A DNA stretch of 64,000 nt from Microtetraspora sp. NBRC 16547 (GTDB lineage Bacteria; Actinomycetota; Actinomycetes; Streptosporangiales; Streptosporangiaceae): the NCBI RefSeq assembly GCF_030268965.1, contig NZ_BSSE01000017.1, positions 62,001 through 126,000 on the forward strand, in the 5' to 3' direction. The notes under the pieces were generated by a model. The model ran no database searches. It was not told the DNA's origin and saw only the letters and a program-made list of their open reading frames with translations. The number at the start of each line of letters is the position of its first letter. The first letter of the stretch is position 1. The position numbers were made by a program, and so were the translations under genes. Positions 1 to 39,398 of the stretch are shown here, piece after piece.

Positions 1-1135
1 GGTACAGGCGCTCGCCGGGCCGGTCGCCGAACGGGTCGGGCACGAACCGCTCGGCGGTGAGCGCGGGGTCGCCCAGATAGCCCCGGGCCAGCCCGGCCCC
101 GCCGATCAGCAGCTCGCCGGGCTCGCCGGGCGGCACCGGGCGCAGTTCCTCGTCGACGACGTGGACCCGGTGACCGGCCAGCGCCCTGCCGATCGGCAGC
201 GGACGCTCCCACCGCCCGCCGGCCTCGAAGGCGGTGACGCAGACGGTCGCCTCGGTCGGGCCGTAGCAGTTGAGGAACCGCCGACCGGAGCCCGACCAGC
301 GTTCGACCTGTTCGGGGCCGGGCGCCTCCGCTCCGGTGATCACGGTGCGCCACTCGGGCAGGCCCGCCGGGTCGAGCAGCGGCAGCAGAGCGACCGGCAC
401 GCAGCCCCAGGTGACCTGGTGACTCGCCGCGAACCGCTGCAGCCGCTCCGGGTCGGTCCGGTCCGCCTCGCCGGCCAGCTGGACGGAGCCGCCCACGGCC
501 AGCGGGACAAGGATGTCCAGGACCGAGACGTCGAAGCCGAGCGATGCGAACCCGAACGAGCGGGTGTGCTCCTCCGCGCCGGTGAACTCCGCGAACGCCA
601 GGGCGTAGGAGACCAGGCTGCGATGGGTGACCACCACACCCTTGGGCCTGCCGGTGGACCCGGAGGTGTAGAGCACGTACGCCGCGTTGTCCGGTCCGGC
701 CGGGCAGACCACCTGCCCGGCCCGGCCGTCGCCGTCCGCCGGAGCGCCGTCCGCCGGAGCGCCCGCCACCGGGACCGCCTGCGGCCCCTGGCCGTCGAAC
801 AGCCTGGCCGTGGACTCGTCCACGACCACCACGTCGATGTCCGCGTCGGCGATGATCTCGGCCCGGCGGGCGGCAGGGCCGTCCGGGTCGAGCGGCACGT
901 AGGCCCCTCCGGCCAGCAGCACCCCCAGCATCCCGGCGACCATCGGCGGCCTGCGGCGCAGGCACAGCCCCACCCGGTGCTCGGGGCCCACCCCGTGCGC
1001 CCGCAGCCGCGCGGCCAGCCGGGTGGCGGTCTCGGCCAGCTCAGCGTAGCCGAGCCGCTCGTCCCACTGTCGTACGGCTGTTGTCTCCGGCCGACGGGCG
1101 GCCTGAGCGAGGACCAGCTCCGGCAGCGTGCTCAT
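1..1135 (-). CDS. NRPS adenylation-domain protein, 3' part outside window
   Basis: This is an AMP-forming adenylation domain that would activate an amino or aryl acid for loading on a carrier protein. The frame is open from ATG at 1135 to the window edge (about 378 codons visible). Core motifs are clear: YTSGSTGRPKG near residue 155 (A3), a FDVSVLD segment (A4), and NCYGPTEATVC (A5), followed by the start of the region leading to A7. Whether a carrier or condensation domain follows lies outside the window. The start overlaps the stop of the upstream thioesterase-LanB gene as ATGA, so the two are translationally coupled. Aligning by eye to PheA gives a tentative specificity code D-V-L-C-I-G-C-V-C, which I cannot assign to a substrate. 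The domain family is certain; the substrate is unknown. Confidence 0.95.
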   Translation of the reverse strand, partial: MSTLPELVLAQAARRPETTAVRQWDERLGYAELAETATRLAARLRAHGVGPEHRVGLCLRRRPPMVAGMLGVLLAGGAYVPLDPDGPAARRAEIIADADIDVVVVDESTARLFDGQGPQAVPVAGAPADGAPADGDGRAGQVVCPAGPDNAAYVLYTSGSTGRPKGVVVTHRSLVSYALAFAEFTGAEEHTRSFGFASLGFDVSVLDILVPLAVGGSVQLAGEADRTDPERLQRFAASHQVTWGCVPVALLPLLDPAGLPEWRTVITGAEAPGPEQVERWSGSGRRFLNCYGPTEATVCVTAFEAGGRWERPLPIGRALAGHRVHVVDEELRPVPPGEPGELLIGGAGLARGYLGDPALTAERFVPDPFGDRPGERLY

Positions 1136-4100
1136 ACGCTCCCTCCCGCGGCCGTGAACGGGGCGGGTACCGGGTCGACCGCGTGCATTCGCAGTTCGGT
1201 GAAATATCGGCGGCCCTCGGCGTCGGACAGCCAGGCCTGGTCAGGGGTCGGCAGCATCTCGGTCACCACGAGGCGGACGTCCGGGCCCTCGGCCAGGTGC
1301 GCCTTACGCACCATGGCGCAAAACAGCGAGGCGTACAGCGGGCTGGTCAGATCCACGTAGGACGGTTTGATCTCGGTGCTCAGCTTGACGAACACCCGCT
1401 CGGGCAGGCCCAGTTCCCGCCGCCATCGGCGCACCGCCAGGTAGGCGGCGCGCTCCCCCGAAGCGTCGGCCAGCCCGGTTGCGCCGGTCGTGGTCCGCCA
1501 TGTACGGCGGGCGACGACCATCCGGTCGATGACGATCCGCGGAGTGTGGCCGTGCGGCGCGGCGGCGGTCAGCTTGAATCCGTCGACGGCGTGCATCGAC
1601 ACCAGCTCGGAGAACATCTCGATGAGCGGCCAGCGCCGCCCGCCGGGGTCCTGGGCGACCAGTTCGCCGTCCACCTCGGTCACCAGCACGGCGGCCGCCG
1701 GGAGCAACCTGTCCGGGTCGACGCCCGGCGCCGCGGTCCAGCCGAGCTGCCGGTCGGTCGGCCCGTCCAGGCTGTGTGCCATCCGGCCCGTCAAACGGGG
1801 CCAGTCGATTGGGTACAGCGGCCGGATGCGGTGCCGGCCCACGTCGGCCGCCAGCGCGGTTCGCAGCGCCTCCGGGTCGGGGTGCGTTCGGGTGAACACC
1901 GCGCAGTCGAAGGTGGGCCAGGCGGCGTGCAGCTCGCCCAGGACGACCAGGTAGTCCCCACGTTCGAGCGCCTCGACGCTGTCCGCGCAGATCTGCAGAT
2001 CCGGGCTGTGCAGCCGGCCCACAGACCAGCCTGGCGCCACGGCGGGGAACGCGGACGCGGCGGCCGCGGCCAGCTCGGCCGCGGTGAACCGCAGCTCCGC
2101 CGTACCTTCCGGAACGTCGGCGAGGCCGAACAGCTTCGCCCAGCGTTCGGCCAACTCCCGGGCGACCGTGTCGACCGGGCGGTCTCCAGAGCCGAACAGC
2201 AGACCCTGCGCCAGGTACCACACGTCGGCCAGCCGGACCTCGGCCGCGTCCGCGCGCAGTTCCTCGTACAGCTCGCGCAGCGCGGCGCCGTACGCGGCGG
2301 CCAGCTCGGCGGTCAGCCAGCGCGCCGCGCCGAGCAGCAGGGCCAGCGGATCGGCGAGCACGTCGAGCAGCGGCCCGCCGAAAGTCACCTGCACGTCCCG
2401 GACGGTGTCCTCGTAGACGAGCCCGCGCCCCGCGTAGGTCTGCCCGGCGCGGCGCTGCGCGGACAGGCCGGTGACCGCGGTGAACTCCGCGTCCAGCGTC
2501 TCCAGCGCGACGAGCAGCGCGTCGGGGTCGCCCGCGGCGGCGGCCACGGCGTCGCGGGCGGCGCACAGCCGGTCGAGGCCGGCGACGGCCTCGGTCCGCA
2601 CGTCCGGCTCCTCGATCCCGGTCAGCAGCTGGCGCAGCTCCCGTTCGGCATCCGGGCTCTGTGGCAGTTCGCCGTGCCAGGCCAGCAGGCCACGTTCGGC
2701 CAGCCGGTCCAGCAGCAGGTAGGCGTCGTCCGCGGTGCGGATTCCGGCGTCGCCGACCACCTCGGCGACGACCTCGGCCGCGCTGCGGCGTCCGTCGCTG
2801 CGGGCCAGCAGGGCGGCCTCAGCGGCCGAGACCGGTACCGGCGGCTGCGCGGGGCGCGACACCTGGCGGCCGTCCAGGACCAGGTGCGGCTGCAGTGCCG
2901 GGGGCAACGAGCGGCGGATCCGCGGGTCCTCGGCCAGCCGGGCGGCGTACGCCCGCAGCGCCCAGTCCTCCAGGTCGGTCCGGCGCCGCCGCGCCAGTCC
3001 GGGGCCGATCCGCACATCGGCCACCTGACCCCGCGGGTCCAGGTCCGCCCAAGCGACCGGGCCGAAGAACCCGATGGTCTCGTTTTTGGCGCAGTAGCGC
3101 TGCCAATACTTGGCCACCGCCAGCTCCCGGACGCGCCGGGGCCGGTTACGGCTCTGGCCGGGGCCGCCGCGCACCAGGGCGTCCAGCGTGACCAGCATGT
3201 TGCGGTTCTGCCAGGTGACGGCTTCGCGGAACAGCGGGTCGGCGGCCACCTGGCAGGCCTGCGCGGCGCCGTCGGCCAGTGCCTGGCCGAATGCCTTGTC
3301 GAACTGTTCCTCACCGGCGTCCCCGGCCAGCAGCTCGTCGGCGGCCTGCGCGCAGTACGGCGCCGCGAACCGGTCGAGTCCGTCGGCGGGGAAGCCCGTG
3401 CTACGCAGCACCACGTCCCGCCACACCGACCAGCCGGTGTCCCCCAGGGGCACCAGGTGGCCCGCGACGGGGTCCGTCCGGTCGGCCTCGGCGGGGAGGA
3501 GGTCGGCCGGGAGCGGGTCTGCGGGGAACAGGTCGGCAGGGAACAGGTCGGCGCGGATCTCCTGGAGGATGCGCGCCCGGCTGGTGTGCAGGAAGAAGTG
3601 GTCGCCCGGCTCCACGTGAAGGCGGAACGCGCCGGTGGTGTGCCGCTCCCACTGGCGGATATCGGCCGCCGGCACGGCCGGGTCGGCCTCGCCCGCGAAC
3701 GCGACGATCGGCACCTCGATCGGCGGCTCCGGCCGGTACGTGTAGCCGTCAATCCAGGTGAAGTCGGCCCGCAGCACGGGCAGGACCAGGTCACGCAGCT
3801 CGGGCTCGGCCATCACCTCGTCGGGAATGCCACCGAGCTCGGCCAGCCGGGCGAGCAGCTCCTCGTCCCCGGTCCGGGCCAGCCGGGCCAGCGGCTCGGC
3901 GAGGTCAGGGGGCCGGCATCCGCCGAGGTAGAGCCCGACCGGCTGACGCTCGCCGCGCCGTCGCAGCTCGCGGACGACCTCGAAGCCGAGCCTGCCGCCC
4001 ATGGAGTGGCCGTAGATCGCGTACGGCCGGTCGGCGCGGGCGTGGATCGCATCCGCCAGCTCGACGACGTCGATGGCCGCCCGCTCGAGGAATCTGCTCT

Positions 4101-4266
4101 CCCTGCCGGGCAACACCACGGAGAGCACCTCGATCCGCGGGTCCGCGTCCGCCGCCCAGCCGTGGAAGGCACTGGCCCCACCCCCGGCGTACGGCAGGCA
4201 GAACAGCAACGCGGCGGCGCCGGGCCGGGGCGCCGGCGAGACGAACCAGTGGGAATGACGACTCAC
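1132..4266 (-). CDS. Type II thioesterase fused to a LanB-like (lantibiotic dehydratase N-terminal) domain
   Basis: This 1044-residue bifunctional protein starts at GTG 4266, whose GTGA overlaps the KS stop. Residues 1-240 are an alpha/beta-hydrolase thioesterase of the editing type: LPYAGGG near 24-30, GHSMG with Ser88, Asp195 in GEADP, and His223 in GDHFFLH. Residues about 241-262 are a linker with four FPAD-like tetrapeptides. Residues about 276-1040 match the LanB glutamylation-type domain, including a TWQNRNML segment, RYCAKNETIGFFGPV, and a C-terminal block with KPSYVDLTSPLY and VTEMLPTPDQAW. The separate elimination domain (SpaB_C type) is absent. Such single LanB domains act on glutamyl- or aminoacyl-tRNA; some (PEARLs) add amino acids to peptide C-termini. 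That the two domains serve one pathway follows from the fusion. The actual reaction is inferred only. Confidence 0.88.
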   Translation of the reverse strand: MSRHSHWFVSPAPRPGAAALLFCLPYAGGGASAFHGWAADADPRIEVLSVVLPGRESRFLERAAIDVVELADAIHARADRPYAIYGHSMGGRLGFEVVRELRRRGERQPVGLYLGGCRPPDLAEPLARLARTGDEELLARLAELGGIPDEVMAEPELRDLVLPVLRADFTWIDGYTYRPEPPIEVPIVAFAGEADPAVPAADIRQWERHTTGAFRLHVEPGDHFFLHTSRARILQEIRADLFPADLFPADPLPADLLPAEADRTDPVAGHLVPLGDTGWSVWRDVVLRSTGFPADGLDRFAAPYCAQAADELLAGDAGEEQFDKAFGQALADGAAQACQVAADPLFREAVTWQNRNMLVTLDALVRGGPGQSRNRPRRVRELAVAKYWQRYCAKNETIGFFGPVAWADLDPRGQVADVRIGPGLARRRRTDLEDWALRAYAARLAEDPRIRRSLPPALQPHLVLDGRQVSRPAQPPVPVSAAEAALLARSDGRRSAAEVVAEVVGDAGIRTADDAYLLLDRLAERGLLAWHGELPQSPDAERELRQLLTGIEEPDVRTEAVAGLDRLCAARDAVAAAAGDPDALLVALETLDAEFTAVTGLSAQRRAGQTYAGRGLVYEDTVRDVQVTFGGPLLDVLADPLALLLGAARWLTAELAAAYGAALRELYEELRADAAEVRLADVWYLAQGLLFGSGDRPVDTVARELAERWAKLFGLADVPEGTAELRFTAAELAAAAASAFPAVAPGWSVGRLHSPDLQICADSVEALERGDYLVVLGELHAAWPTFDCAVFTRTHPDPEALRTALAADVGRHRIRPLYPIDWPRLTGRMAHSLDGPTDRQLGWTAAPGVDPDRLLPAAAVLVTEVDGELVAQDPGGRRWPLIEMFSELVSMHAVDGFKLTAAAPHGHTPRIVIDRMVVARRTWRTTTGATGLADASGERAAYLAVRRWRRELGLPERVFVKLSTEIKPSYVDLTSPLYASLFCAMVRKAHLAEGPDVRLVVTEMLPTPDQAWLSDAEGRRYFTELRMHAVDPVPAPFTAAGGSV

Positions 4267-6017
4267 GTGAGTGCCTCGATCCAGTAGCGCTTGCGCTGGA
4301 ACGGGTACGCCGGAAGGGACACCCGGCGGTGCCCGTCGTCGTACAACGCCGTCCAGTCGACGTCGGCGCCGGCCAGCCACTCGGCGGCGAGCCGGCACAG
4401 TTCCTCGGGCCCGTCGTCGCCGCCCCGCAGGCCCTCCGGCCCGTCAACGCGCCCGTCACTGGGCCCGTCACTGGGCCCGTCATTGGCGCGGAGCAGCGCC
4501 ACGGCCTCGTCCCGGTCGCGGCACAGCACCGCCGTCCGGTGGCCGAACGCCCGGCGCCCCATCGCGAGGGTGCAGGCCACGTCGTCCAGCCGCGCCTCGG
4601 GGGTGCGCTCCAGGTGATCGGCCAGTCGCTCCGCCGTCGCGCGCAGGGCCTGCGGCGTACGCGCCGAGACCGTCAGCAGGTGCCATCCCGCGGGGGCGGG
4701 CCGCGGGGGCGCGGCCGGCGGCTGCTCGACGATCACGTGCGCGTTGGTGCCGCCCAGGCCGAAGGAGCTGACCCCGGCGCGCCGCGGCCCGGGCTGCTCC
4801 CAGTCCTGGGTCTTCACCGGGACGAAGAACGGCGAACCGGCGAAGTCGGTGTCCGGGCCCGGCCGCCGGTAGTGAAGGCTGGCGGGGATGACGCCGTGCC
4901 GGACCGCGAGCACCGCCTTGATCAGGCCCGCGGCGCCGGCCGCGGCGTCCAGGTTGCCGATGTTGGTCTTGATCGAGCCGAGCGCGCACGAGCCCGGCAC
5001 CGGGTCCGGCCCGAACGCGCGGATCAGGGCGGCCGCCTCGATCGCGTCGCCGACCAAAGTGCCGCTGCCGTGCGCTTCGACGTACCCGATCGCGGAGGCG
5101 GTCAGCTCGGCGGCGGCCAGCGCCTCGGTCACCACCGCCGACTGCCCCTCCGTGCCGGGTGCGGCGAAGCCGGCCCGTACCGCGCCGTCGTTGTTCACCG
5201 CCCAGCCGCGGAGCACCGCGAGCACGTGGTCGCCCTGGTCCAGCGCGTCGGCCAGCCGCTTGAGCGCGAGCACCGCCACGCCGCTGCCGTACACCGTGCC
5301 CTGCGCGGACGCGTCGAACGTGCGGCAGCGTCCGTCCGGCGAGATCAGCCCGCCCGGGGTGTGCCGGAACCGCGGCCAGGTGATGCTCACCCCGCCGGCC
5401 AGCGCCAGGTCGCACCGGTAGTCCAGCAGGTTCTGGGCGGCGGTGCAGATCGCGACCAGCGAGCTCGAGCAGGCGGTCTGCACCGCCACCGCCGGGCCGG
5501 TCAACCCGAGCCGGTAGGCCACCTGGGCGGGCAGGTAGTCCGCCGCCGCCCCCTGGACCAGCTGCTGCTCCAGGTCGTACGGCTCGGCCCCGGTGGCGGC
5601 CGGGTTGCCGAGCAGGTGGAACAGGAAGTACCGGTTGGCCGAGGAGCCGGCGAACACTCCGACCACGCCGTCGTAGGCCGCCGGGTCGCAGCCGGCGTCC
5701 TCCAGCGCCGCCCAGGCCTGCTCCAGGAACAGCCGCTGCTGCGGGTCCATCCGCTCGGCCTCGGCGGACGGCACGCCGAAGAACTCGGCGTCGAACTCGG
5801 CCACGCCCGGCAGGTGCCCTCCGGAACGCACGTGGGCCGGGTCGCCGATCAGCCGCTCGTCGACACCCAGATCGCGCAGTTCGTCGTCGGTGAAGTCGTG
5901 GACCGCGTCCACGCCGTCGAGCAGGTTGCGCCACAGGGACGGCACGTCCGGTGCTCCGGGGAACCGCCCGGCCATCCCGACCACGGCGATCTCGTCGCCG
6001 GTGTACCCGCCGGACAT
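4263..6017 (-). CDS. Ketosynthase protein lacking AT, with His-to-Asn in the catalytic triad
   Basis: A 584-residue type I polyketide ketosynthase. The nucleophile Cys183 sits in TACSSS and His316 in EAHGSGT. The third catalytic residue, normally His in NIGH, is Asn355 (KTNIGNLDAAAG), read from AAC in the DNA. The KS core ends near residue 430. A KS-AT linker follows, then directly the post-AT linker ending YPFQRKRYW, with no acyltransferase or carrier domain between. The His is needed for decarboxylative condensation, so this KS may transfer or hold an acyl chain rather than extend it (inference, as for non-elongating KS0 domains). I chose ATG 6017 because it overlaps the upstream stop by one base (TGATG) and begins at the usual KS N-terminus; the longer frame upstream has no homology. 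Confidence 0.93.
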   Translation of the reverse strand: MSGGYTGDEIAVVGMAGRFPGAPDVPSLWRNLLDGVDAVHDFTDDELRDLGVDERLIGDPAHVRSGGHLPGVAEFDAEFFGVPSAEAERMDPQQRLFLEQAWAALEDAGCDPAAYDGVVGVFAGSSANRYFLFHLLGNPAATGAEPYDLEQQLVQGAAADYLPAQVAYRLGLTGPAVAVQTACSSSLVAICTAAQNLLDYRCDLALAGGVSITWPRFRHTPGGLISPDGRCRTFDASAQGTVYGSGVAVLALKRLADALDQGDHVLAVLRGWAVNNDGAVRAGFAAPGTEGQSAVVTEALAAAELTASAIGYVEAHGSGTLVGDAIEAAALIRAFGPDPVPGSCALGSIKTNIGNLDAAAGAAGLIKAVLAVRHGVIPASLHYRRPGPDTDFAGSPFFVPVKTQDWEQPGPRRAGVSSFGLGGTNAHVIVEQPPAAPPRPAPAGWHLLTVSARTPQALRATAERLADHLERTPEARLDDVACTLAMGRRAFGHRTAVLCRDRDEAVALLRANDGPSDGPSDGRVDGPEGLRGGDDGPEELCRLAAEWLAGADVDWTALYDDGHRRVSLPAYPFQRKRYWIEALT

Positions 6018-8506
6018 CAGGCGCGCACCGCCGCCAGCACGTCCTCGACGCCGCTCACCTTGATCATCGCGTCCGGCTCCAGCGGTTGGTAGTCCGCGCT
6101 GGTGTAGCACCCGGTGCCGTGCACCACGATGTCCCGCCCCTCGTCGATCAGGCCGCGGTCGACCGCGTTCAGCACGCCGGTCAGGGCCATCACCATCGAC
6201 CACTCACGCAGCGTGCGGAAGTCGGCGGGCAGCGCGCACCCGGTGCCGGCGAGCAGATCGCGCAGGTGCGGGTAGCGCTGGACGCACTCGGCGAGCGACA
6301 CCACGATGCCCTCGCCGCCGAAGCGGCCGATCAGCTCGTTCATCGCCGGGGAGGTCGCGGGGCGGTGAGTGTAGAACGTCGGGTCGAGGATCTCGTCGGG
6401 GTCGTAGGTGACCTGGGGGAAGTGCGGGTCCGCCGACTGCCGGTAGAGGCCGTCGGCGGGGTCGATCCGGTAGGCCGGCAGGTTGCCGCGGTCGAAGTCG
6501 CCGTGCCGCAGGTTGAGGACCATGTCCGGGGTGCCCATGTGCTGGACGAGCAGGCTGGCCGGACGGGTGTCCCGGCTCGCCTGCCCCGTGGCTTCGAGCA
6601 CCTCCCGCCCCTTGTGGTAGCCGAGCAGGCCGAACGCGCTGGACACCGCGTGCGCGTGCAGCCGCGGCGCGCTGATCGGGTCCGCGTCGTGCTCGAAGAA
6701 CGCCCGCACCGTGTCGGCGACCAGGTAGTTGCCCAGCTCCAGGGAGAACCACAGGTTGTGGCCCCGGGCCTGGAACTCCGCCGCGTACCGGTCGACGAAC
6801 TCGCGCCCGATCGCCTTGACGTGCTCGGGCTCGGGGCCGGTGTAGAGCAGCATCGGGTTCAGCGCTCTGAGCGTGGGGTCGGTGGAGAGGCGGCTGGAGC
6901 GCAGCTTGGCCAGGCAGGACTGCGGGGCGAGGATCACCACGCGCAGCAACTCGGGGTCCACCAGCCCGGCCTCGATGGCCCGCAGCACCGCGTCCCGCAG
7001 CGCCACGCCCTTGTTCGCCGAGGTCGGCGAGAAGATCGACACCGGCTCGCCATACCGGCGGATGTACTCCACGGCCCGCGCCACGATGAGCAACGAGGCG
7101 AACGTCTTGGTGGTCCCGGTCCCCGGGTTCCCGGTCAGGTCCAGGAGGGACAGCCGGTGCGTGCCGTACATCCCCAGATGCCGCCACTCGGCGGTGGCCG
7201 CCGACAGGAACCGGCGCAGGTCGTCGTCCAGCTCGGGCAGCAGGAAGCCGGGAGAGAACGGGCCGCCGTCCCGGACCGGGTCGACGTCGCCGCCGCAGGC
7301 CGCGATCGCGGCGGGCAGCCGGTCGTAGAAGTCGATCAGCAGGTTCGCCGAGCGGACCGGGGTCACGGTCTCGGCTTCGACGGTGGGCACGGGGCTCGGC
7401 ATTGTTTGCGTACCTCGTTCGTAGCGGGGTGGTTGGTTGCGCAGTCGGGTCCTGAGCTGGTCGAGACGGTGGGTGACCGCTTCGATGTCACTGATCGGGA
7501 AGCCCTCCGCCAGCTCCGGCACAAGCCGGCTCAGCTCCTCCTGGGCGGTCGGGCCGAAGCGGACCCGGCCGTCGTCCACCACGACCCCGTCCCGCAGCGC
7601 GGCACGCGAGTTGAACGCAACCGCCTCCGCCCGGCTCACGCCCGCGGGCAGCCGCAGCTCCAGCCGGGTGCCGGACAGGCGTACCGGGTAGCCGCCCGGC
7701 AGCCCGAGCACCCCCGGCAGGGTGGTGTCGGTCTCGGCCCCGGCGAGCAGGTCGCGAACGAGCTGTGCGGCGGCGTACCCGGTGACGTGGTTGAGTTCGG
7801 ACCGGGTGGCGGCCCGCTGGGCGGCGAGCAGCTTTCCGACCTCGGCGACGGGCTGGCCGTCGTACCAGGCGAGCGCCTCTTCCTCGCCCTCCGACGGGGT
7901 ATGCAGGTGAACGTGGTGGGCCAGCACACGCAGGCGGCGCTGGTCAGGGAGCCCAAGAGCCGCCTGGATGCTGGCGGCGATCAGCGCGCCGTTGCCGATG
8001 CCGCACAGCGCGGGCACTCCCGCCGCCGCCAGTACCTGGTTGGCCGCGTCGGGGAAGCAGGCGTTGATCAGCCACGCCTCTGGGTGCGTGGCCGCGAGCG
8101 CTCGGCCCACCCGCAGCGCGGGCTCGGCCTGGAACGGCAGGGTAAGGCCGAACCCCGCCCGCTGGACGAGCTCGGTCCACGCCGACGGGGCGTTCTGCCG
8201 CTCCCAGGGTGACTGGCTGGACGCGGCCACCAGCACGCCCGTGGGCGCCCCCACGCCGAGCGTGTCGGCCAGGGATCGATCGCAGGCCGGATCGACGGTC
8301 AGCGGCTGGAAGGTCACCGGTACGCCGGCCGCCGCGGCTCGGGCGGCGGCGACGTAGCAGACCTCCGCGGCCCTGCCGTGGTCGCGTCCTGCCACCAACA
8401 CCCGGATGGGCTGAGTGCCGCAGACGGCCAGCGCGTAGCAGATGCTCCGAGCGAGCCCCCCGGTACCGATGACGGCGAGCGTCGGCTGGTCGGTCATGGG
8501 TGCCAT
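6017..8506 (-). CDS. Rossmann dehydrogenase-like / PLP fold II-like fusion protein
   Basis: This 829-residue protein opens the biosynthetic operon. Residues 1 to about 365 carry an N-terminal nucleotide-binding motif (VIGTGGLA) and a layout like lactate/malate-type dehydrogenases, with GLPGGYPVRL in the C-terminal half. Residues about 370-829 resemble the tryptophan-synthase-beta (fold II) PLP superfamily: GNPGTGTTKTF, with Lys467 where the PLP lysine would lie, and SPTSANKG at 493-500 where an SSGNTG-type loop is expected. This half looks like an uncharacterised actinobacterial family seen near antibiotic genes, possibly DUF6002. A GAGG lies ten bases before internal ATG 7402 (Met369), so the second half could also be made alone. 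The two halves may supply an unusual amino-acid building block (inference). Confidence 0.7.
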   Translation of the reverse strand: MAPMTDQPTLAVIGTGGLARSICYALAVCGTQPIRVLVAGRDHGRAAEVCYVAAARAAAAGVPVTFQPLTVDPACDRSLADTLGVGAPTGVLVAASSQSPWERQNAPSAWTELVQRAGFGLTLPFQAEPALRVGRALAATHPEAWLINACFPDAANQVLAAAGVPALCGIGNGALIAASIQAALGLPDQRRLRVLAHHVHLHTPSEGEEEALAWYDGQPVAEVGKLLAAQRAATRSELNHVTGYAAAQLVRDLLAGAETDTTLPGVLGLPGGYPVRLSGTRLELRLPAGVSRAEAVAFNSRAALRDGVVVDDGRVRFGPTAQEELSRLVPELAEGFPISDIEAVTHRLDQLRTRLRNQPPRYERGTQTMPSPVPTVEAETVTPVRSANLLIDFYDRLPAAIAACGGDVDPVRDGGPFSPGFLLPELDDDLRRFLSAATAEWRHLGMYGTHRLSLLDLTGNPGTGTTKTFASLLIVARAVEYIRRYGEPVSIFSPTSANKGVALRDAVLRAIEAGLVDPELLRVVILAPQSCLAKLRSSRLSTDPTLRALNPMLLYTGPEPEHVKAIGREFVDRYAAEFQARGHNLWFSLELGNYLVADTVRAFFEHDADPISAPRLHAHAVSSAFGLLGYHKGREVLEATGQASRDTRPASLLVQHMGTPDMVLNLRHGDFDRGNLPAYRIDPADGLYRQSADPHFPQVTYDPDEILDPTFYTHRPATSPAMNELIGRFGGEGIVVSLAECVQRYPHLRDLLAGTGCALPADFRTLREWSMVMALTGVLNAVDRGLIDEGRDIVVHGTGCYTSADYQPLEPDAMIKVSGVEDVLAAVRA

Positions 8507-8807
8507 GTGCCGCTACCGCCCCGCCCCAGGACGCGGCCGGTGCGCCGTGGAGAGCGTGTCCGCGGGCTCGGCGGCAGAGGAGCGATGGGCTGCGCCGGTC
8601 TGATGGATCTCCGACTTGGACATGGTGCAAGACAAGAAGAACTCCCCGAGCGAAAGCCGCTGTCCCCGGCCTCAGTCGCGCCTGACCGCCGCCGCGGAGG
8701 GTCTCACCACGGCGTTGGACTTAAATGCATGGCGGCATCACGAGAAGACGATGCGTGACGGCATGTTTCAGCACACTCTCTCGTTCGACCGTGAACGGTT
8801 GCCCGAT

Positions 8808-8848
8808 TCTGTATAAACACGGACTCCTATGTCAATAAGGTCATAGGA
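8808..8848 (-). promoter_or_regulatory. Promoter with overlapping palindrome for the biosynthetic operon
   Basis: On the minus strand TTGACA (8835-8830) is followed after 16 bases by TACAGA (8813-8808). A 7-bp inverted repeat, TCCTATG (8825-8831) and CATAGGA (8842-8848), flanks and overlaps the -35 box, as a repressor operator would. The predicted transcript would have a leader of about 290 bases before the start at 8506. Confidence 0.45.
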
Positions 8849-9254
8849 CCAAAACCGCAGAAAACGGCCATAGAGCTGGCCGGCTCGCTTTACTTACACA
8901 AACGATCACAGAAGGTAACCGCAAGGCCAGAAAGTCTTCAAATCCTACATGAATTACCCGAAATGCCTGGATTCGGCGCGGCACGCTTCGCTCGGCGCGC
9001 AGGTGCGTCCGCGTTTCCGACCGCGAGACCAGGCTGCCCGCCCCACCTTCCCGCCACCCTCGCGACGCAGGGCCGCCTCTACCCCAGGGGCTTGACGGTG
9101 GTGAATGGTCAGGGCTCGCGACTGCTCGGCGATTTCCCGTCCGCACGCGCCATGCCGCGAAACAGTCCGTCACAACCCGACAAATGAACGGGGACGACGT
9201 AGACGAAATGACAGAAGTAGCCAAGCCGAGATGCAGAATAGCATTTATCAAAAA

Positions 9255-9297
9255 ACTCATGATCCGTGAGTCGCGAGTTCGAGCCCCACCCGCCCTA
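9255..9297 (+). tRNA. Degenerate 3' half of a CAT-anticodon tRNA (possible attachment-site remnant)
   Basis: The segment starts at ACTCATGATCCG, matching an anticodon loop with CAT and the 3' anticodon stem. It continues through a T-loop (GTTCGAGC) and ends in CCCACCCGCCC, like the 3' end of a Met-type tRNA. No 5' half precedes it, and the T-stem 5' strand (GCGAG) pairs only partly with CCCAC, so it is not a working tRNA. Such 3' tRNA halves are typical remains of integrase attachment sites. Confidence 0.6.
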
Positions 9298-9928
9298 AAT
9301 AGCGAACATGGCCCCTGACCTGCGTTTTTCAATGAGTCGAGATTGTGGAACGAGCGAAAGGAGCCGATGGCCGCCCTTGGGCCACGGACCGGGCACGCGA
9401 TAGATCGTTTGGACCGCCTACGTCAGGTCGGGCCACAAAAACGATCAAGAGAAGACCGCAACCGAAGATCTCTCAGGCTTCCGCATCCGCCACATACCGA
9501 CAGCCAAGGAAGGGTCCGCACCAATCCGGCCATCTCTGCCAGACGACGCTTGAGGTCGGTACCGCTCGGAGCCACCGCCATGGAGGCTCCCTTCGAACCG
9601 CACCCCTCCCCCGGGTTCACTGACCAGGGCATCATCGGCGATCCCTTCTCCTACAATGCGCGCGGCTCCTGTGAGGGACTCCGGATCGAACCTGCGCCTC
9701 TCGGCTCCCGCGAGCCCTCCTCATCTCCGGCCAGAGGCGGATCGAGCCAACGTGATCTTGTCCGACATCTGTCGGAAATGCCGCGATCGAGACAGAACGG
9801 CCGTCCGAAGACATCCCGCACCTCCGCCCATAGCATCAGGCCTTCCGGGGCCTCTTTACGGTCCCTTCAACCCCCCTTGGGGCCGACTTTCGGTCCCACC
9901 CACCCTGATCGTTCGGGAAGGTTCGTCG

Positions 9929-11881
9929 ATGTCTTTGCCGCGCCAGGTGATGGGCCTTGTGGCACCAACCGCGTTCCGTAGTCCGAGATCAGCACGCCGC
10001 GGCGCCGCGGCGCTGGGTCTCGCCGCCACCATGACCCTTGCCGGGGTCGCCGCGAACCCGGCCCCCGCCGGCGCGGCCGTCCCGGTCGGACCGGTCTTCA
10101 AGGACGGCATGGCCCAGCCGGTGTTCTCCTCGAACCGCAACGACTGGATCCGTGAGGAACTGTGGATCGAGACCTCGATCGACAGTGACGGCGACGGGCG
10201 GAACGACCGGGTGCACGCCGAGGTCACCCGGCTCCGGGAGACCGAGACGGCCGGCCTCAAGTCCCCCGTCGTGTACGAGGCCAGTCCCTACTACGCGGGC
10301 GGCAACGCGGTCGAGAACCACAACGTCGATCACGAGCTCCACCAGGCACTCCGCCCGGGCAAGGGCTGGATGAACCGCGGTGGTTCGGTGAAGGACCCGG
10401 CAACCGACGAGCGGCTGGCCGCCGCCGCCGAAGCCGACGCGGCCGGCGAAGCCGACGCCGCCGCCGCGGGCACCGGCCCGCAGCCCGTCATCAGCACCAG
10501 CCACGAGTCCAACTGGCTGCCTCGCGGTTTCGCGGTGGTCCATGCCGAGTCGCTGGGCAGCGGCAAGTCCGACGGCTGCCCGACCACCGGCGGGCGCAAC
10601 GAGACCATCGGCGCGAAGTCCGTCGTCGACTGGCTGAACGGTCGTGCGAAGGCCTACGACGCCGCCGGCAGGGAAGTCCACGCGACGTGGACGACCGGCA
10701 AGGTCGGCATGATCGGCACCTCGTACAACGGCACCCTGCCCAACGCGGTCGCGAGCACCGGCGTCGATGGCCTCGAGGCCATCGTTCCCATCTCGGCGAT
10801 CTCGAGCTGGTACGACTACTACCGCGCGAACGGCGCCGTGGTCGCCCCCGGCGGCTACCAGGGCGAGGACGCCGACGTGCTCGCGGAGTACGTCTACACC
10901 CGCGCGAACAAGCAGATCTGCCGAAACGTCATCGAGCAGCTCGCGAAGGAGCAGGACCGGGTCACCGGCGACTACACCGCCTTCTGGGACGAGCGCAACT
11001 ACATGAACGACGTCGACAAGGTCCACGCCGCGGTGCTGGTCGCGCACGGACTCAACGACTGGAACGTCAAGACCAAGCACGCCGCGCAGTGGTACGAGGC
11101 GCTCAAGGCGCGCGGCGTGCCGCACAAGATCTATCTGCACCAGGGCGGGCACGGCGGCTCCCCCAGCGTCGACGTACTCAACCGCTGGTTCACCCGCTAC
11201 CTGTGGGATTACGAGAACGGCGTGGAGAACGACCCGCGGGCGCTGATCCAGCGCGAGGACAGGACGCTGGTGGAATACCCCGAGTGGCCTGAACCGGCCG
11301 CGGCGGACGCCGAGCTCAACCTGGCGCCCGGCAGCGACGGAGCCGCCGGTGGCCTTACCGGCGACAAGACCCGCCTGGGCACGCCGGTGACCGAGACGAT
11401 CGTCGACGACGCCTCGAAGCGGGCGCAGACCCTCGCCGACGCCGCGACGTCTCCCAACCGCCTGGCCTACAAGTCCGGGACGCTGATCGGTGCGGTCCGG
11501 TTCAGCGGCACGCCGAAGGTGTCGCTGCGGATGTCCTTCGGCCAGCCGGCCGCGAACGTGACGGCGCTGCTCGTCGACTACGACCAGAACGGCAAGGCGA
11601 AGATCATCACGCGGGGCTGGACGGATCCGCAGAACCGCAAGTCGATCTCGCGGACCGAGCCGGTCAAGCCGGGCAGCCCGTACCGGATCGACTTCGACAT
11701 GCAGCCGCATGACTACGTGTTCGCGGCGGGACACCGCATCGGCATCGTGCTGCTGTCGAGCGACTACGAGTACACCATCCGGCCCACCCCGGGCGCGACG
11801 CTGCACCTCGACACGACGAAGAGCACGGTCATGCTGCCGCTCGTCGGCGGAGCGGCCGCGTTCACCGCGGCCAACGGCTGA
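9929..11881 (+). CDS. Secreted X-prolyl dipeptidyl-peptidase-like protein (S15 family)
   Basis: A 650-residue exported serine peptidase that would release X-Pro dipeptides from peptide N-termini outside the cell. The start ATG 9929 follows GGGAAGG and opens an Arg-rich signal peptide ending at an alanine-rich site near residue 45. The nucleophile lies in GTSYNG (near residue 264), the acid in GLNDWNVK (near 376), and the His in GGHGGSP (near 407). The C-terminal beta-rich domain typical of the family follows (about 470-650). A long frame upstream of the ATG lacks homology and was excluded. The gene stands alone and ends in a strong hairpin. The CocE/NonD branch of the same fold is the main alternative. 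Confidence 0.88.
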   Translation: MSLPRQVMGLVAPTAFRSPRSARRGAAALGLAATMTLAGVAANPAPAGAAVPVGPVFKDGMAQPVFSSNRNDWIREELWIETSIDSDGDGRNDRVHAEVTRLRETETAGLKSPVVYEASPYYAGGNAVENHNVDHELHQALRPGKGWMNRGGSVKDPATDERLAAAAEADAAGEADAAAAGTGPQPVISTSHESNWLPRGFAVVHAESLGSGKSDGCPTTGGRNETIGAKSVVDWLNGRAKAYDAAGREVHATWTTGKVGMIGTSYNGTLPNAVASTGVDGLEAIVPISAISSWYDYYRANGAVVAPGGYQGEDADVLAEYVYTRANKQICRNVIEQLAKEQDRVTGDYTAFWDERNYMNDVDKVHAAVLVAHGLNDWNVKTKHAAQWYEALKARGVPHKIYLHQGGHGGSPSVDVLNRWFTRYLWDYENGVENDPRALIQREDRTLVEYPEWPEPAAADAELNLAPGSDGAAGGLTGDKTRLGTPVTETIVDDASKRAQTLADAATSPNRLAYKSGTLIGAVRFSGTPKVSLRMSFGQPAANVTALLVDYDQNGKAKIITRGWTDPQNRKSISRTEPVKPGSPYRIDFDMQPHDYVFAAGHRIGIVLLSSDYEYTIRPTPGATLHLDTTKSTVMLPLVGGAAAFTAANG

Positions 11882-11898
11882 GCCGGGACCGACCTACG

Positions 11899-11926
11899 GG
11901 GCGGGCCGCCAGTCGGCGGCCCGCCC
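11899..11926 (+). terminator. Rho-independent-type hairpin after the X-prolyl peptidase gene
   Basis: A perfect 12-bp stem (GGGCGGGCCGCC and its complement) with the loop AGTC lies 18 bases after the stop codon. No T tract follows, as is common in high-GC actinobacteria. Confidence 0.75.
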
Positions 11927-12112
11927 TCAGCCGTACTTGTGGCACCCAGAGGAAGAGGAGCGCGACCGCGACCGCCGCCGGGCCCGCGGCCAGCAGCAGC
12001 TGACGGGCCGATCGCCCCCTCTCGATAGTCCTCGCCGAGGACGGCGTGCGGGGATAGTGCCCGGCGGCAGCGGAGCCATGACGTCCTCAGGTACCTGACT
12101 GCTGGAACGGTC

Positions 12113-12141
12113 GGGCCCGCGCCGAGCATCGGCGCGGGCCC
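12113..12141 (-). terminator. Hairpin after the large secreted protein gene
   Basis: A perfect 13-bp stem (GGGCCCGCGCCGA and its complement) with the loop GCA lies just past the stop of the minus-strand gene ending at 12156. It could also stop transcription from the left. Confidence 0.7.
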
Positions 12142-12155
12142 TGTGGGTCAAACCG

Positions 12156-15100
12156 TCAGCACGACTCAGGACGTAGGGCGAAGTCGGTGTTCACCGTCTG
12201 CCCCTTGATGGTGACCTTCGTCGTCTGCGGTATCCATCCGTCCCGGGTCACGATCATCTGAACCGGGTTGGCGTTCGTCGGTCCCCAGATCGCGTACCGG
12301 CCGTCCGGGTCGGTCTTCAAGGTGAACGACCAGCCCTTCGCGCCGCTGACCTGCACCGTGGCCCCGCGCAAGGCCGCGCTCGCGCCCTTGCAGTCGACCC
12401 CGGTGACCACGCCGGCCAGCTTGCCCCAGTTGTTGGGCGGCTGCGCGTTCATCGTCACGTCGATCGGCGCCACCGCGTACGGCGTGTTGGACTTGACGCC
12501 CAACTGGGCGGTGTAGTTGCCCGGCTGGGCCACGCCCGCCTCCGACCTGGCGTCGAGGGTGACCGTCACTGTGACGCTCTCCCCGGGCTGCAGCGTGGCC
12601 GTGGTCGGCGACGCGGACAGCCACGGCACGTCGGTGACGGTGGCGCACTGGTCGAAGCCGGGCAGCATCTCGCTTTCCGGCGTCGGGGTGAACCCACCGG
12701 TCGATCCACCGATCTTCACGAACCCGCACGCCGCCCCTGCCCGGTAGCGGGAGAAGTTGGCGTTGGGCAGTGCCGACCAGGAGTTCGCCGCCGGGTCGTA
12801 GGCCCAGCCCTGGTTGGTGACCACGGTGGAGTTGTTGATGACACCGGTGGAGAGCAGCAGCAGCCCGTTGGCGGTGCCGGCGCCTGCGGCCCAGAAGTCG
12901 ACCGGCAGGTCGGCCAGCTGGGTCCAGGTGTTGCTGCTCGGCGAGTAGGCGTAGGTGCTCTTCAGCGTCGTCGTCCCGTTACCGCCGGCGCAGTACACCG
13001 TGCCGTTGATCCCGCCGCATCCCTGCCAGGCCACCGGGACCGGGTACGGCGCGACCGTGGTGAACGTGTCGTTGGCCGGGTTGTACTTGACGACCGCATT
13101 GGACTTGGCGCAGTTGCCGTCCACGCAGCCGCCGACCAGGTAGATCTGGCCGTCGACCACGGCGAGCCCGGCCGCCGCCCGCGGCGCGGGGTTGACCGCG
13201 GCCCGGGTCTGCCAGGCGTTGGTCGCCGGATCGTAGACGTACACCTTGGTCGATGTGTTGCCGGCCGAGTCCCATCCGCCGAAGACGTACATCTTCCCGT
13301 CGACGAAGGTCGCCGCCGGCTTCTCCAGGGCCGCGGGAAGATCGGCGATCCTCGTCCAGGTGTTCGCCGCCGGGTCGTAGGCGTAGCCGTTGGCGAGGTT
13401 GGCGGTGGCGGAGGCGCCGCCGACCGAGTACACCTTGCCGTCGAACGCCGCCGCGGCGTTGTCCATCACCGCCACCGGGTAGTTGGCCGTGTTGATCCAC
13501 GGCGGCGCGTACGGCGACGGCTCGAACGGGTCACCGGGCTGGCTGTCGCCCCGCCAGCCGGGCGAGACGCCGCCGCCCTTGACCATGTTGCGCTGGAGCG
13601 GCGCACCGCGCGGCCCGAGAATCTCAAATCCGCCGCGACGTTCCGACAGCTCCACCGTGGCCGGCGCGTTGCCGGTGTTTCTGATCGTCGTCTTCACGGT
13701 CTTGGTCTGGCCCAGCGGCTGGTCGCTGCTCACCTTCGGCGGGGTGATGGTCAGCCGGCCCGCCTTGAGGTTGAAGTCCGACCGGGTGGCCTGGTCCGCC
13801 GCCACGTTCACCGTGGAGGTGACGGAGCCGTAACCCGCACTCGCCGCGGTGAACGGGTGGTTCCCGGTCAGGGAGGAGAACATCCAGTAGAACCCGTCGC
13901 CGACCTTGCTGTCGTCGGGTGACGGCGCCGTGGTGGCCTGCTCGGCGGGCTTGTCGACGCTGGTCACGGTCGCACCGTTCAGCCCGTCGCGGGTGTTGCT
14001 GTCGAGCGCCCGCCCGACGACGAGACCCCCGGGGATCGGGTCGCAGGACCGGTTGACCAGGGAGACGTTGTCGATCTGCCACCACCAGGCGTAGGCGCCC
14101 CGGTAGTGGAAGCGGATCTTGACTTCGGACTTGCCACCGGCCTCCGGGATCGACAGCTCCTCCAGGACCGGCCCGCGCCGGCTGGCGGTGGTCCAGTTCG
14201 ACACGGTCTTCCACGTGGTGCCGTTGTCGACGCTCACCTCGACGTTGCCGAATCCGTTGAGAGCGCGGTAGTCGCTGTTGAACCGCAACACCGGTGCCGA
14301 TACGGCCGACAGGTCCAGGGCCGGGGTCACCAGATCGGTGTCGATGGTCGTACCCGATCCGGCCGCGTCACTGTCCGCGATCACGTACTTGCCGGTGCCG
14401 CCCGTGAGGTTGCCCCGGTTCTTCGGGTCGTTGAACACCCAGCCGCCGCTGGTGGTGCGGTTCACCACGCTCCAGCCCTCGGGAGCCGTCCCGGACTCGA
14501 ACTGCTCCGTGAACAGCGGGCTGCCGTAGTTGATCGTGTATCCGGCGGCGAGGCAGGTGTTCTCCACGGCGAGGCTGAAGTCCTTCGACTGGTCGCCGTC
14601 CTCGACGCGGAGCTCCGCCGTGGCCTGCTGGTACGACGGGTACATCGCCTTGACGGTCAGGGCGTACTCGCCGCTCGGCAGGTCGATGCTGTACGCGCCG
14701 GTGGCCGGGTCGGTGAACAGCGGCTCGCCAGGCCGGCCGGCCACGTCGATCCGCGCGTACAGCGGCCAGCCGTGTCCGGATCCGTCCTTCACCACACCGG
14801 AGACACGGTGCTTGGCCACGACTTCGAGGGTGAAGTCGGACGTCACCGCGCCCCCGTCCCCAACGGTCACCTTCGCGGTCTTCGTCGCGTACCCGAAGGC
14901 GGAGACGGTCAGCTCGTGCTCGCCGGCCGGCAGGGTCAGCTTGTACGCGCCCTGCGCGTCGGTGGTGGTGCCGCCGCTGCCCACCCGCACGGCGGCGCCG
15001 GCGATCGGGCCGCCCGCCGAGGAGGTGACCTTGCCGGTCACCTCGCCGCGCGGACCGGCCACGCAGTTCGGGAACTTCATCGAGCCGATGCGGGTCTGCC

Positions 15101-16712
15101 AGTTGGCGGAGCTCGTCGTGGTCAGGTACTCGGACGTGAACCAGAACGTGCAGCCGTCTGTCGGGTCCACCGACATCGAGGTGTAGTCACCCCAGCGGGA
15201 CGCGGAGTGGGTCTGCGCCCCGGTCCCCGCGATCAGCGTCCGCTCGCTCTGGCCGAGCTGGCCCAACGGATCCCCGGCGAGGCGGCCCGCCATCCGGATC
15301 GAAGGGTAGCTCGTGGTTCCGGAGGCCGAGTACCCGAACGCGATGTTGCCGGAGACATCCATCGCCCCACTGGCCATCCAGCGGTGCTCGGCGTCCGGCG
15401 CGTAGGTGCCCTGCTGGTGGATGGTCCAGTTCGTGGGGCTCGTGCTCCGCACCTCGTACCAGCGCACGCCCGCGTGGTCGTTGCCGTCGGCGTCCACGGT
15501 GTGGTTCAGCACGATCGAGGCGTGGTCGCCGAAGTTACGGTACGCGGCACGGTACATCAGCCGGTCGGCGATCGCGTCCAGCTTGGTCGTGGTGCCCTGC
15601 TGCGGGACGCAGCCGCGCGCGTAGTTGCACATGTTGGAGTCGAACGGGGCGGTCTCCATGTATCGGCTCGGCGCCAGGTTGTTGCCGAAGGTGGAGTTCG
15701 CCGGGTTGGCCCAGTCGACCTTGAAGTCCCACATCAGCAACCGGTCGGTGGGTGAGACGCCCCACGCGTCGTCGTCGAACATCACGAACGGGTTCGGCGC
15801 CCCGGCCGGCGGAGCGAGGCCCTCCGCGTCGGAGGGCAGCAGGCCTCCGTAGTCCGGCCCGAGGTGGAAGTACACCATCCGGGCCGGCTGACCGGCGAGC
15901 ATCTTCTCCCGCTCGAACGCCACCGCACCCGCGCCGACGAACGACGGGGCGAACTCGTTGGTGGTCATGTAGTAGGCGTCCGGCCAGATCCCGTACTTCG
16001 GATAGTCGTTCATCCGGGTCTGGTGGTAGAGGAAGTCGTACCGGTAGTACGCCCCCGTCGGGTCCGGGGTCTGCGAGATCGCCATGCACTGGTGGTTGCC
16101 GGCGGATCCGCCGGGCAGCGCGAACTGGGTGATCATCCACCGGTCGGCGGCCTCGTCGTAGAGGACCACCGGGTCACCGTCGTTCCTGGTCTCGCAGGGC
16201 CCGCCGAAGCCGGAGAACACCGCGTTGCCGGGCAGCGGGCCGAGCATCAGGTTGCCGCGCTTGTCGTAGACCGCGTACGAGAGGTTCACCATCTGCACGT
16301 AGTGGTTGGGGCCCACGTCGCCGTTGATGTCCGGGGGCAGCACCCCGTCGACGTTGCCGATGCCCTCGAAGTTCACGCCGAACTCGGGCACCTGGGTCGC
16401 GGTGAATCCTCGTTGCACCACGTCGCTGCCGGTCTTGGCGCTCGCCACCGCCGCCTCGCGGGGCAGCTGCCGATTGATCGGCTCCTCGACCTTGGACCCG
16501 CGGTCACGGGTGGCTTTCGGATGGAGATCGCGCATCTTGCGGGAGAGGTCGTGCTTGACGGCTTCGCGGATCTCCGCCTTGGAGTTCTTCGCGGCTGGGG
16601 CGGGTTCCGGCGCCGCCGCGGACTGGGCGGCGGCCGGTAAGCCGCCGAAGAGCAGCAGTGTGGTGACGGCGGCCACTACTGCTCTCGCTCGTAGTCGTCG
16701 TACCTGTCGCAT
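12156..16712 (-). CDS. Giant secreted multidomain protein with carboxypeptidase-regulatory, anchor-J and kelch domains
   Basis: A 1518-residue exported protein of unknown role. A signal peptide occupies residues 1 to about 32. A large domain (about 100-560) resembles beta-propeller surface proteins. Two carboxypeptidase-regulatory-like beta-sandwiches follow (about 560-720), each with an ITGXV-type start (GEVTGKVTSSAG, HRVSGVVKDG). Residues about 735-885 form a choice-of-anchor-J/MAM-like domain (FTEQFESGTAPEGW to WWWQIDNVSL). Another regulatory-like domain and an Ig-like segment come next. Residues about 1090-1340 contain kelch repeats (KVYSVGGA, KMYVFGGW, QIYLVGGC, YDPAANTW). A final Ig-like and regulatory-like pair ends the protein. 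No protease active site was found, so a binding or adhesive role is inferred. The divergent regulator at 17022 may control it. Confidence 0.85.
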   Translation of the reverse strand: MRQVRRLRARAVVAAVTTLLLFGGLPAAAQSAAAPEPAPAAKNSKAEIREAVKHDLSRKMRDLHPKATRDRGSKVEEPINRQLPREAAVASAKTGSDVVQRGFTATQVPEFGVNFEGIGNVDGVLPPDINGDVGPNHYVQMVNLSYAVYDKRGNLMLGPLPGNAVFSGFGGPCETRNDGDPVVLYDEAADRWMITQFALPGGSAGNHQCMAISQTPDPTGAYYRYDFLYHQTRMNDYPKYGIWPDAYYMTTNEFAPSFVGAGAVAFEREKMLAGQPARMVYFHLGPDYGGLLPSDAEGLAPPAGAPNPFVMFDDDAWGVSPTDRLLMWDFKVDWANPANSTFGNNLAPSRYMETAPFDSNMCNYARGCVPQQGTTTKLDAIADRLMYRAAYRNFGDHASIVLNHTVDADGNDHAGVRWYEVRSTSPTNWTIHQQGTYAPDAEHRWMASGAMDVSGNIAFGYSASGTTSYPSIRMAGRLAGDPLGQLGQSERTLIAGTGAQTHSASRWGDYTSMSVDPTDGCTFWFTSEYLTTTSSANWQTRIGSMKFPNCVAGPRGEVTGKVTSSAGGPIAGAAVRVGSGGTTTDAQGAYKLTLPAGEHELTVSAFGYATKTAKVTVGDGGAVTSDFTLEVVAKHRVSGVVKDGSGHGWPLYARIDVAGRPGEPLFTDPATGAYSIDLPSGEYALTVKAMYPSYQQATAELRVEDGDQSKDFSLAVENTCLAAGYTINYGSPLFTEQFESGTAPEGWSVVNRTTSGGWVFNDPKNRGNLTGGTGKYVIADSDAAGSGTTIDTDLVTPALDLSAVSAPVLRFNSDYRALNGFGNVEVSVDNGTTWKTVSNWTTASRRGPVLEELSIPEAGGKSEVKIRFHYRGAYAWWWQIDNVSLVNRSCDPIPGGLVVGRALDSNTRDGLNGATVTSVDKPAEQATTAPSPDDSKVGDGFYWMFSSLTGNHPFTAASAGYGSVTSTVNVAADQATRSDFNLKAGRLTITPPKVSSDQPLGQTKTVKTTIRNTGNAPATVELSERRGGFEILGPRGAPLQRNMVKGGGVSPGWRGDSQPGDPFEPSPYAPPWINTANYPVAVMDNAAAAFDGKVYSVGGASATANLANGYAYDPAANTWTRIADLPAALEKPAATFVDGKMYVFGGWDSAGNTSTKVYVYDPATNAWQTRAAVNPAPRAAAGLAVVDGQIYLVGGCVDGNCAKSNAVVKYNPANDTFTTVAPYPVPVAWQGCGGINGTVYCAGGNGTTTLKSTYAYSPSSNTWTQLADLPVDFWAAGAGTANGLLLLSTGVINNSTVVTNQGWAYDPAANSWSALPNANFSRYRAGAACGFVKIGGSTGGFTPTPESEMLPGFDQCATVTDVPWLSASPTTATLQPGESVTVTVTLDARSEAGVAQPGNYTAQLGVKSNTPYAVAPIDVTMNAQPPNNWGKLAGVVTGVDCKGASAALRGATVQVSGAKGWSFTLKTDPDGRYAIWGPTNANPVQMIVTRDGWIPQTTKVTIKGQTVNTDFALRPESC

Positions 16713-17021
16713 CTGGGGGGCTCCTTGCTGGCGGCGGACGAGGGGTGTGTCGCCGCCGGAAGACGCAGGTGGACTGCCGGCCCGGCGGACACGGGGTGTC
16801 GGCCCGCCGGAGGAGAAGGAGGGGGTGACGGAGTAGGCACACGCCGCGGGGTTGACGGCGTCCGATCATCATCAGCCGCTGCCGGTCTTTTCTCGAGACC
16901 AAAATGTGGGCGATAGCGGGGCAGAATCGGCTCAAAGCAGTCCGTATCGATCTGACATCCATCCGTCACAGGTGCAAGTCTGGATATTGACTGTGTGTGG
17001 CGCCGTTGTTTTCCTTAGCCC
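16713..17021. promoter_or_regulatory. Divergent intergenic region
   Basis: These 309 bases separate the divergent starts at 16712 and 17022 and should hold both promoters. The half nearer 17022 is more AT-rich (GATCTGACATCCATCC, TATTGACTGTGTG). I could not fix -35 and -10 boxes with confidence. Confidence 0.4.
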
Positions 17022-17522: not shown

Positions 17523-17650
17523 ACCCTGCCAGGGGTGCGGAAATCGCGATCCGTGCACTGAGCTGGGGTTATTCGGCGGCTTTCCAGCGCATCACCGGTA
17601 TTCGCCGATCGGCGCTACTTCATCCGGGGCGCCAACGAGGGAGCCGAGAA

Positions 17651-17677
17651 GGGCTGACCGTACCGGCCGGTCAGCCC
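17651..17677 (-). terminator. Hairpin after the Gfo/Idh/MocA gene
   Basis: A 10-bp stem (GGGCTGACCG and CGGTCAGCCC) with a 7-base loop lies 20 bases past the stop at 17698, and is probably shared with the convergent regulator gene. Confidence 0.55.
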
Positions 17678-17697
17678 GGGTCCAAGTCCGGGGGTCG

Positions 17698-39386: not shown

Positions 39387-39398
39387 GGCGGACCGACG

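Follow-up and report, generated by a model that had tools for sequence, protein, structure and literature searches.

What does a LanB-like domain do in a gene cluster built of nonribosomal peptide synthetase (NRPS) and polyketide synthase (PKS) genes? The question is raised by positions 1-8506 of a 64,000-nucleotide stretch from the soil actinobacterium Microtetraspora sp. NBRC 16547 (the window, C17:62001-126000, where C17 is contig NZ_BSSE01000017.1 of a 7.8 Mb genome and C17 coordinates follow the contig numbering), where such a domain is fused to a thioesterase (TE). We propose that it probably adds amino acids taken from tRNA, in the manner of the peptide aminoacyl-tRNA ligases (PEARLs), and that it belongs to an operon in which an unusual starter amino acid may be made and passed on by a ketosynthase (KS). 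For this reading as a whole we give a probability of about 0.5.

Four overlapping genes

The open reading frame (ORF) list and direct reading of the letters place four minus-strand genes in this part of the window, overlapping at every junction. The couplings claimed in an initial annotation could all be read: TGATG between ORF1 and ORF2 (TGA 6019-6017, ATG 6017-6015), GTGA between ORF2 and ORF3 (GTG 4266-4264, TGA 4265-4263) and ATGA between ORF3 and ORF4 (ATG 1135-1133, TGA 1134-1132). By its junction, ORF3 starts at GTG 4266, downstream of an earlier in-frame start in the ORF list. Domains are abbreviated A (adenylation), T (thiolation), C (condensation), AT (acyltransferase), KR (ketoreductase), DH (dehydratase) and ACP (acyl carrier protein); PLP is pyridoxal phosphate.

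6017..8506 (-): ORF1, malate-dehydrogenase-like domain and DUF6002 threonine-synthase-like PLP domain in one frame (profile match and predicted folds)
about 7391-8494 (-): front half of ORF1, malate-dehydrogenase-like (predicted fold)
about 6020-7366 (-): DUF6002 half of ORF1, threonine-synthase-like (PF19465 and predicted fold)
4263..6017 (-): ORF2, stand-alone KS with a linker, without AT or ACP (PF00109, active-site alignment)
1132..4266 (-): ORF3, thioesterase-LanB (PEARL-like) fusion, GTG start (PF00975 and PF04738)
3550..4206 (-): thioesterase domain of ORF3, GHSMGG motif (PF00975)
1135..3447 (-): LanB N-domain of ORF3, PEARL-like, without PF14028 (PF04738, profile search)
1..1135 (-): A domain at the front of ORF4, an A-T-C-T protein continuing past the window edge to contig position 59638 (PF00501)

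Residues at PEARL-like positions in the LanB domain of ORF3

The thioesterase-LanB fusion described earlier is real: in the Pfam search, PF00975 (4.1e-36) and Lant_dehydr_N PF04738 (3.3e-36) lie in one open frame of ORF3. A profile search of the genome found the elimination domain PF14028 absent from ORF3 and its cluster; the genome's one match lies on contig C6, in a 986-aa protein that also carries a strong PF04738 match.

PEARLs join the amine of an aminoacyl-tRNA to a carboxylate, and for one of them, BhaB7, the residues R34, Y205, R208, D558, E575, R715, F755, E813 and R815 are named, D558, E575, E813 and R815 as ATP-site residues and Arg208 as binding the CCA end of tRNA (PMC11962472, available part of the text). 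By order and rough spacing, these were paired with R32, Y135, K138, D500, E522, R659, F703, E768 and R770 of ORF3, so that D500, E522, E768 and R770 sit at ATP-site-like positions. Residues were counted in 116 LanB sequences, window included (L042, with a stop in the aligned stretch, was dropped, and only hits covering more than 600 residues entered the count). No variation occurs at R32, Y135, K138, D500 and E522; 114 sequences keep E768 and R770, the other two having gaps there; and the residue at 703 is F (79 sequences) or Y (37). The canonical LanB of the same genome is without D, E and E at these positions (loose alignment). LanB-like proteins from Streptomyces plasmids share the D, E and ExR in six cases out of six, and likewise all six have Lys for Arg208. 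Several of their genes adjoin A, ACP or NRPS genes; the S. albogriseolus record is unannotated. A sequence search of the PDB with the LanB domain gave no match, and the LanB profile gave two matches near E = 1, taken as chance. The residues are evidence, not proof, that ORF3 has a PEARL-like site.

Of the plasmid loci, L105 has, next to its LanB-like gene, genes of the methylaspartate mutase, ACP, AMP-binding, ATP-grasp and lone condensation types, and in L104 two LanB-like genes accompany an A domain, a PLP enzyme and an ACP.

The PEARLs TglB, BhaB7 and AmmB2 have, like ORF3, a LanB glutamylation-type domain without an elimination domain, and ORF3 has candidate counterparts of the ATP-site residues by order and spacing. 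In the available descriptions they extend ribosomal scaffold peptides, whereas ORF3 is fused to a thioesterase and has Lys for the Arg that binds tRNA-CCA. Class I lantibiotic dehydratases (LanB) share PF04738 with ORF3, which differs from them in lacking PF14028 and in having the ATP-site-like residues.

SnaE offers a precedent within an assembly line. Gene omission showed that it is required for Thr addition in an NRPS-PKS pathway, its use of ATP and tRNA being the authors' proposal from homology; the authors also mention that LanB-like enzymes of this kind occur in about two thousand NRPS/PKS clusters, some of them fused to a TE (Yu and van der Donk, PMC10769383, PMC11212132, available parts). 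Because ORF3 has no elimination domain, keeps PEARL-like residues and has SnaE as a precedent, tRNA-dependent addition is the best reading of its LanB domain. The initial annotation, which had suggested such an addition, was thus probably right in kind, on a point that is already anticipated in print.

The threopeptin (sna) cluster of Stackebrandtia nassauensis resembles ours in its NRPS and PKS genes, MbtH, thioesterase, transporters and LanB-like protein; its available description reports no precursor peptide and proposes a tRNA-dependent amide bond. In sna, however, one C domain is of the ureido-forming type (EHHxxHDG), TE and LanB are not fused, there is an acyl-CoA dehydrogenase, and the architectures are A-T-C-A-T and KS-AT-T; the window cluster has canonical C motifs, a fused TE-LanB, and DUF6002, lone KS and A-T-C-T genes in addition. 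The earlier claim that no characterised pathway has this gene set is accordingly too broad, because sna already joins NRPS, PKS, TE and a LanB-like enzyme; DUF6002, lone KS and A-T-C-T proteins are missing from the available list of sna genes (PMC10769383, PMC11212132). No other characterised NRPS/PKS-linked LanB-like enzyme was found in the literature searched, and among the literature matches listed, with supplements and most subscription journals outside the scope, none was a study of this cluster family. The family and its building-block genes appear unstudied.

An operon of about 27 kb

The operon extends leftward, without strand change, to about C17:43260. From match positions, the gene order is ORF1 (dehydrogenase-DUF6002), ORF2 (KS), ORF3 (TE-LanB), ORF4 (A-T-C-T), ORF5 (KS-AT-KR-DH-ACP), an MbtH gene, ORF7 (C-A-T), ORF8 (C-A-T-TE fused to a major facilitator superfamily, MFS, transporter) and ORF9 (A-T). 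HxlR, RibD-like and hydrolase genes lie past its end. The adenylation domain reported earlier is present (PF00501, 4.9e-83 in the Pfam search) but is only the front of ORF4, 1165 aa in full, the rest being cut off by the window edge; no A domain accompanies the second T of this protein. Likewise, ORF2 is a KS without AT, as had been stated, but the pathway has an AT in ORF5. Carrier proteins, transporters and a scaffold peptide had been named as things to look for to the left: T and ACP domains and the MFS fused to ORF8 are there, and no scaffold-peptide gene was seen between the tightly spaced operon genes, no precursor-peptide tool having been applied.

The A codes of ORF7 (DVWHVSLVD) and ORF8 (DVWHISLVD) are presumably for Ser. 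That of ORF9, DMTHVGGFA (DLTHVGGFA in L039), resembles in part DLTKVGHIG, which we take to be an Asp code. The C motifs are canonical (FHHAVFDG, AHHSICDA, VHHIASDG), none having the ureido signature EHHxxHDG.

The A-code core of ORF7 (C17:50739-53861) is much like that of ORF8, and its counterpart in genome G001 has, by eye, a DLTK-type code, which we assume to be Asn-like; this suggests that an A domain may have been swapped. In ORF8 (C17:45217-50742) the terminal module and the transporter share one open frame, as they do in G002, G003, L050 and L075; they are apart in L092. Two almost identical MFS genes, C17:35726-37084 and the shorter 39395-40306, lie with 2.3 kb between them.

ARAGORN found no dedicated tRNA gene in the window, and had matches, possibly false, in four of 48 further loci (L071, L080, L089, L095); Rfam gave no match in window positions 1-20000. 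Upstream of ORF1, at window 9255-9297, 43 bases have 86% identity to part of the genome's tRNA-Met gene, which lies on contig C3. No intact tRNA was predicted there by ARAGORN, and the 43 bases are possibly a remnant or an insertion scar.

Relatives of the cluster

Genome contigs were scanned with six LanB-like proteins; 213 stretches matched and 151 encoded relatives, and retaining the best 80 left 76 loci. Genes were counted by tblastn with length cut-offs, some stretches ending at contig ends. The family is found across many actinobacterial genera. A-T-C-T is present in 67 loci, PKS in 63, KS in 63, A-T in 61, TE in 57 and an ORF1 half in 25, and 46 loci have all six of LanB, A-T-C-T, PKS, KS, A-T and TE. 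Nine are without A-T-C-T at the cut-off (L041, L078, L085, L092, L094, L096, L098, L101 and L102). LanB is present in one copy in 37 loci, two in 38 and three in one; TE and LanB share one frame in 42 of the 58 loci having both, and A-T and KS in 38 of 60.

All three other genomes of the genus that were searched have the cluster, with A-T-KS in one frame, TE and LanB separate and no DUF6002. The ORF8 counterpart of G001 is cut by the stretch examined, and that of G003 is divided between two contig ends, cluster and all.

A gene common to the flanks of L055, L065, L069, L080, L092 and L093 (316 aa in L069) is TauD-like by eye.

DUF6002, the adenylation code and the ketosynthase go together

ORF1 had been called a dehydrogenase/PLP-like fusion, and both halves fit that description. 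DUF6002 (PF19465) matches at 7.6e-190 in the Pfam search; the front half, which has no Pfam match at E<=0.01, is called a dehydrogenase because of its predicted fold. In the predicted models (pLDDT 87.7 for the DUF6002 half and 90.0 for the front half), the best match of the DUF6002 half was threonine synthase 2d1f (Z 25.5, rmsd 3.2, 299 aligned) and that of the front half malate dehydrogenase 2hlp (Z 22.9, rmsd 3.1, 264 aligned). The DUF6002 half is thus predicted to fold like threonine synthase, a fold type II PLP enzyme, and the front half to have the malate/lactate dehydrogenase fold. A saccharopine-dehydrogenase NADP-binding profile matched weakly in 10 of 22 front halves (best 4.9e-07). 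The Lys of the TTKT motif in DUF6002, which may be the PLP lysine, is invariant in 22 out of 22 sequences. The two halves share one frame only in the window and L099. A PDB sequence search with ORF1 gave no match, and DUF6002 is named in no paper found by a literature search with little coverage of subscription journals. By eye, a small gene resembling aspartate 1-decarboxylase (panD) is present in the DUF6002 loci L089, L096 and L097.

The KS of ORF2 (PF00109, 3.9e-68 in the Pfam search) keeps the Cys and the first His, and has Asn for the second (KTNIGN), so that its active site is C-H-N and not the Cys-His-His triad of elongating KS. Catalytic residues were counted across loci from the alignment. 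A catalytic His is missing from the KS in all 24 loci having either ORF1 half, window included (22 C-H-N, one C-N-H, one C-S-N), and the triad is intact in all 40 others. The ORF9-type A code is D[ML]TH in the window and in 19 of the 19 DUF6002 loci scored, five of 24 having yielded no ORF9 code. Loci without a DUF6002 match in the stretch have DAPH (39 of 42), DPRH (two) or DMTH (one, L091, which has the dehydrogenase gene and whose contig stops where DUF6002 lies in L090).

Because the stretches in which absence of DUF6002 was first judged reached at most about 6 kb beyond the A-T gene in most loci, whole genomes were searched (27, with G009 counted in both groups). Among the 21 genomes with a non-DUF6002 locus, 16 have no DUF6002 gene anywhere; the seven examined that carry a DUF6002 locus all have one. 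G009, a Micromonospora, carries both types: L044 with DAPH and an intact KS, and L050 with DMTH, DUF6002 and a C-H-N KS. The association of DUF6002, A code and KS is new here, and strict in the loci scored.

When the four gene trees were limited to the 53 loci they share, with the window among them and each locus represented by a single LanB, the number of label changes was 1 for KS, 1 for A-T, 2 for LanB and 2 for PKS, with shuffled means near 14.6. Full gene trees gave 1, 1, 8 and 3, the LanB figure being inflated by LanBs outside the core cluster. These few changes weaken the idea that many independent swaps back the link.

A proposed pathway and its rivals

Every function in the proposed pathway is inferred from what the sequence shows: the genes present, the order of their domains, open frames, conserved residues and predicted folds. 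ORF1 would probably supply a non-proteinogenic amino acid, to be activated by ORF9, the free-standing A-T protein. The KS of ORF2, probably incapable of elongation, would transacylate this unit, possibly onto ORF4's second carrier domain, and the C domain of ORF4 would join that protein's own residue to it. A C2 unit would be added and modified by the PKS module of ORF5, with a gamma-amino unsaturated acid as a possible result; two serines would come next, after which the last TE would release the product and the fused MFS would export it. The TE-LanB fusion would probably free the carboxylate of an intermediate or of the product, phosphorylate it with ATP and join it to a tRNA-borne amino acid, as PEARLs do. 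A free A-T protein and an A-less carrier domain are also the layout of in trans loading of the SyrB1/SyrC/SyrE type; here the KS lacking one His and the Ser-type TE are the candidates for transfer.

Several points weigh against this pathway. The residues were paired with BhaB7 by order and approximate spacing, not by alignment to a characterised PEARL. The tRNA-binding Arg208 is Lys138 in 116 of 116 sequences (a conservative change, at a position taken from the Y..R/K..T..GF motif), and R659 varies, being R in 95 of 116. A DUF6002 gene lies elsewhere in five of the 21 genomes with a non-DUF6002 cluster (G009, G012, G013, G015, G020), and the link of DUF6002, A code and KS rests on about one or two events, because there are mainly two lineages. 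Finally, since the C domains are without EHHxxHDG, the chain reversal that makes the acceptor carboxylate for SnaE is not expected here.

In a narrower form of the pathway, which we hold possible but unlikely, LanB would extend the side-chain carboxylate of a carrier-bound starter amino acid, and the chain would grow sideways. The resemblance of the ORF9 code to the presumed Asp code, the methylaspartate mutase, ACP and AMP-binding protein paired with LanB on plasmid locus L105, and the panD-like gene of three DUF6002 loci all point this way; the substrate assignment, however, comes from a partial code match, and panD was recognised by eye only.

LanB might instead charge the A-less carrier of ORF4 from aminoacyl-tRNA, in place of an A domain. 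The second T of ORF4 would suit this, as would the presence of A-T-C-T and LanB in the same stretch in 67 of 76 loci. But known PEARL chemistry joins amine to carboxylate, not acyl to carrier thiol (PMC11962472, available part), the number of LanBs varies from one to three, and ORF9 with the KS or TE could load this carrier; we consider such loading improbable.

It is very improbable that LanB works as one half of a true lantibiotic dehydratase, with the serines of the peptide glutamylated from Glu-tRNA and converted to dehydroalanines. Membership of PF04738 would fit, as would the two Ser-type A domains that close the assembly line, but the only PF14028 domain of the genome is in another protein on another contig, and the scored relatives keep the ATP-site-like residues, which a loose alignment does not show in the genome's canonical LanB. 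A canonical dehydratase was rejected as the principal explanation for lack of the elimination domain, and a threopeptin-type ureido chain reversal because the C motifs do not fit.

What the family may do

As a generalisation of the proposed pathway, which we think possible but less likely than not, the clusters may form a release-and-extend family, in which TE would free a carboxylate, the fused LanB would extend it from tRNA, and one to three LanB copies would set the number of residues; the ORF1-type pair would make a new starter amino acid, passing through a transfer-type KS. For DUF6002, the analysis supplies a predicted fold, a partner enzyme and an adenylation code linked to it. The SnaE acceptor arises by ureido reversal, which is not expected in this family. 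Its fused TE-LanB proteins and its one to three LanBs per locus make the rule of one LanB, one added residue testable.

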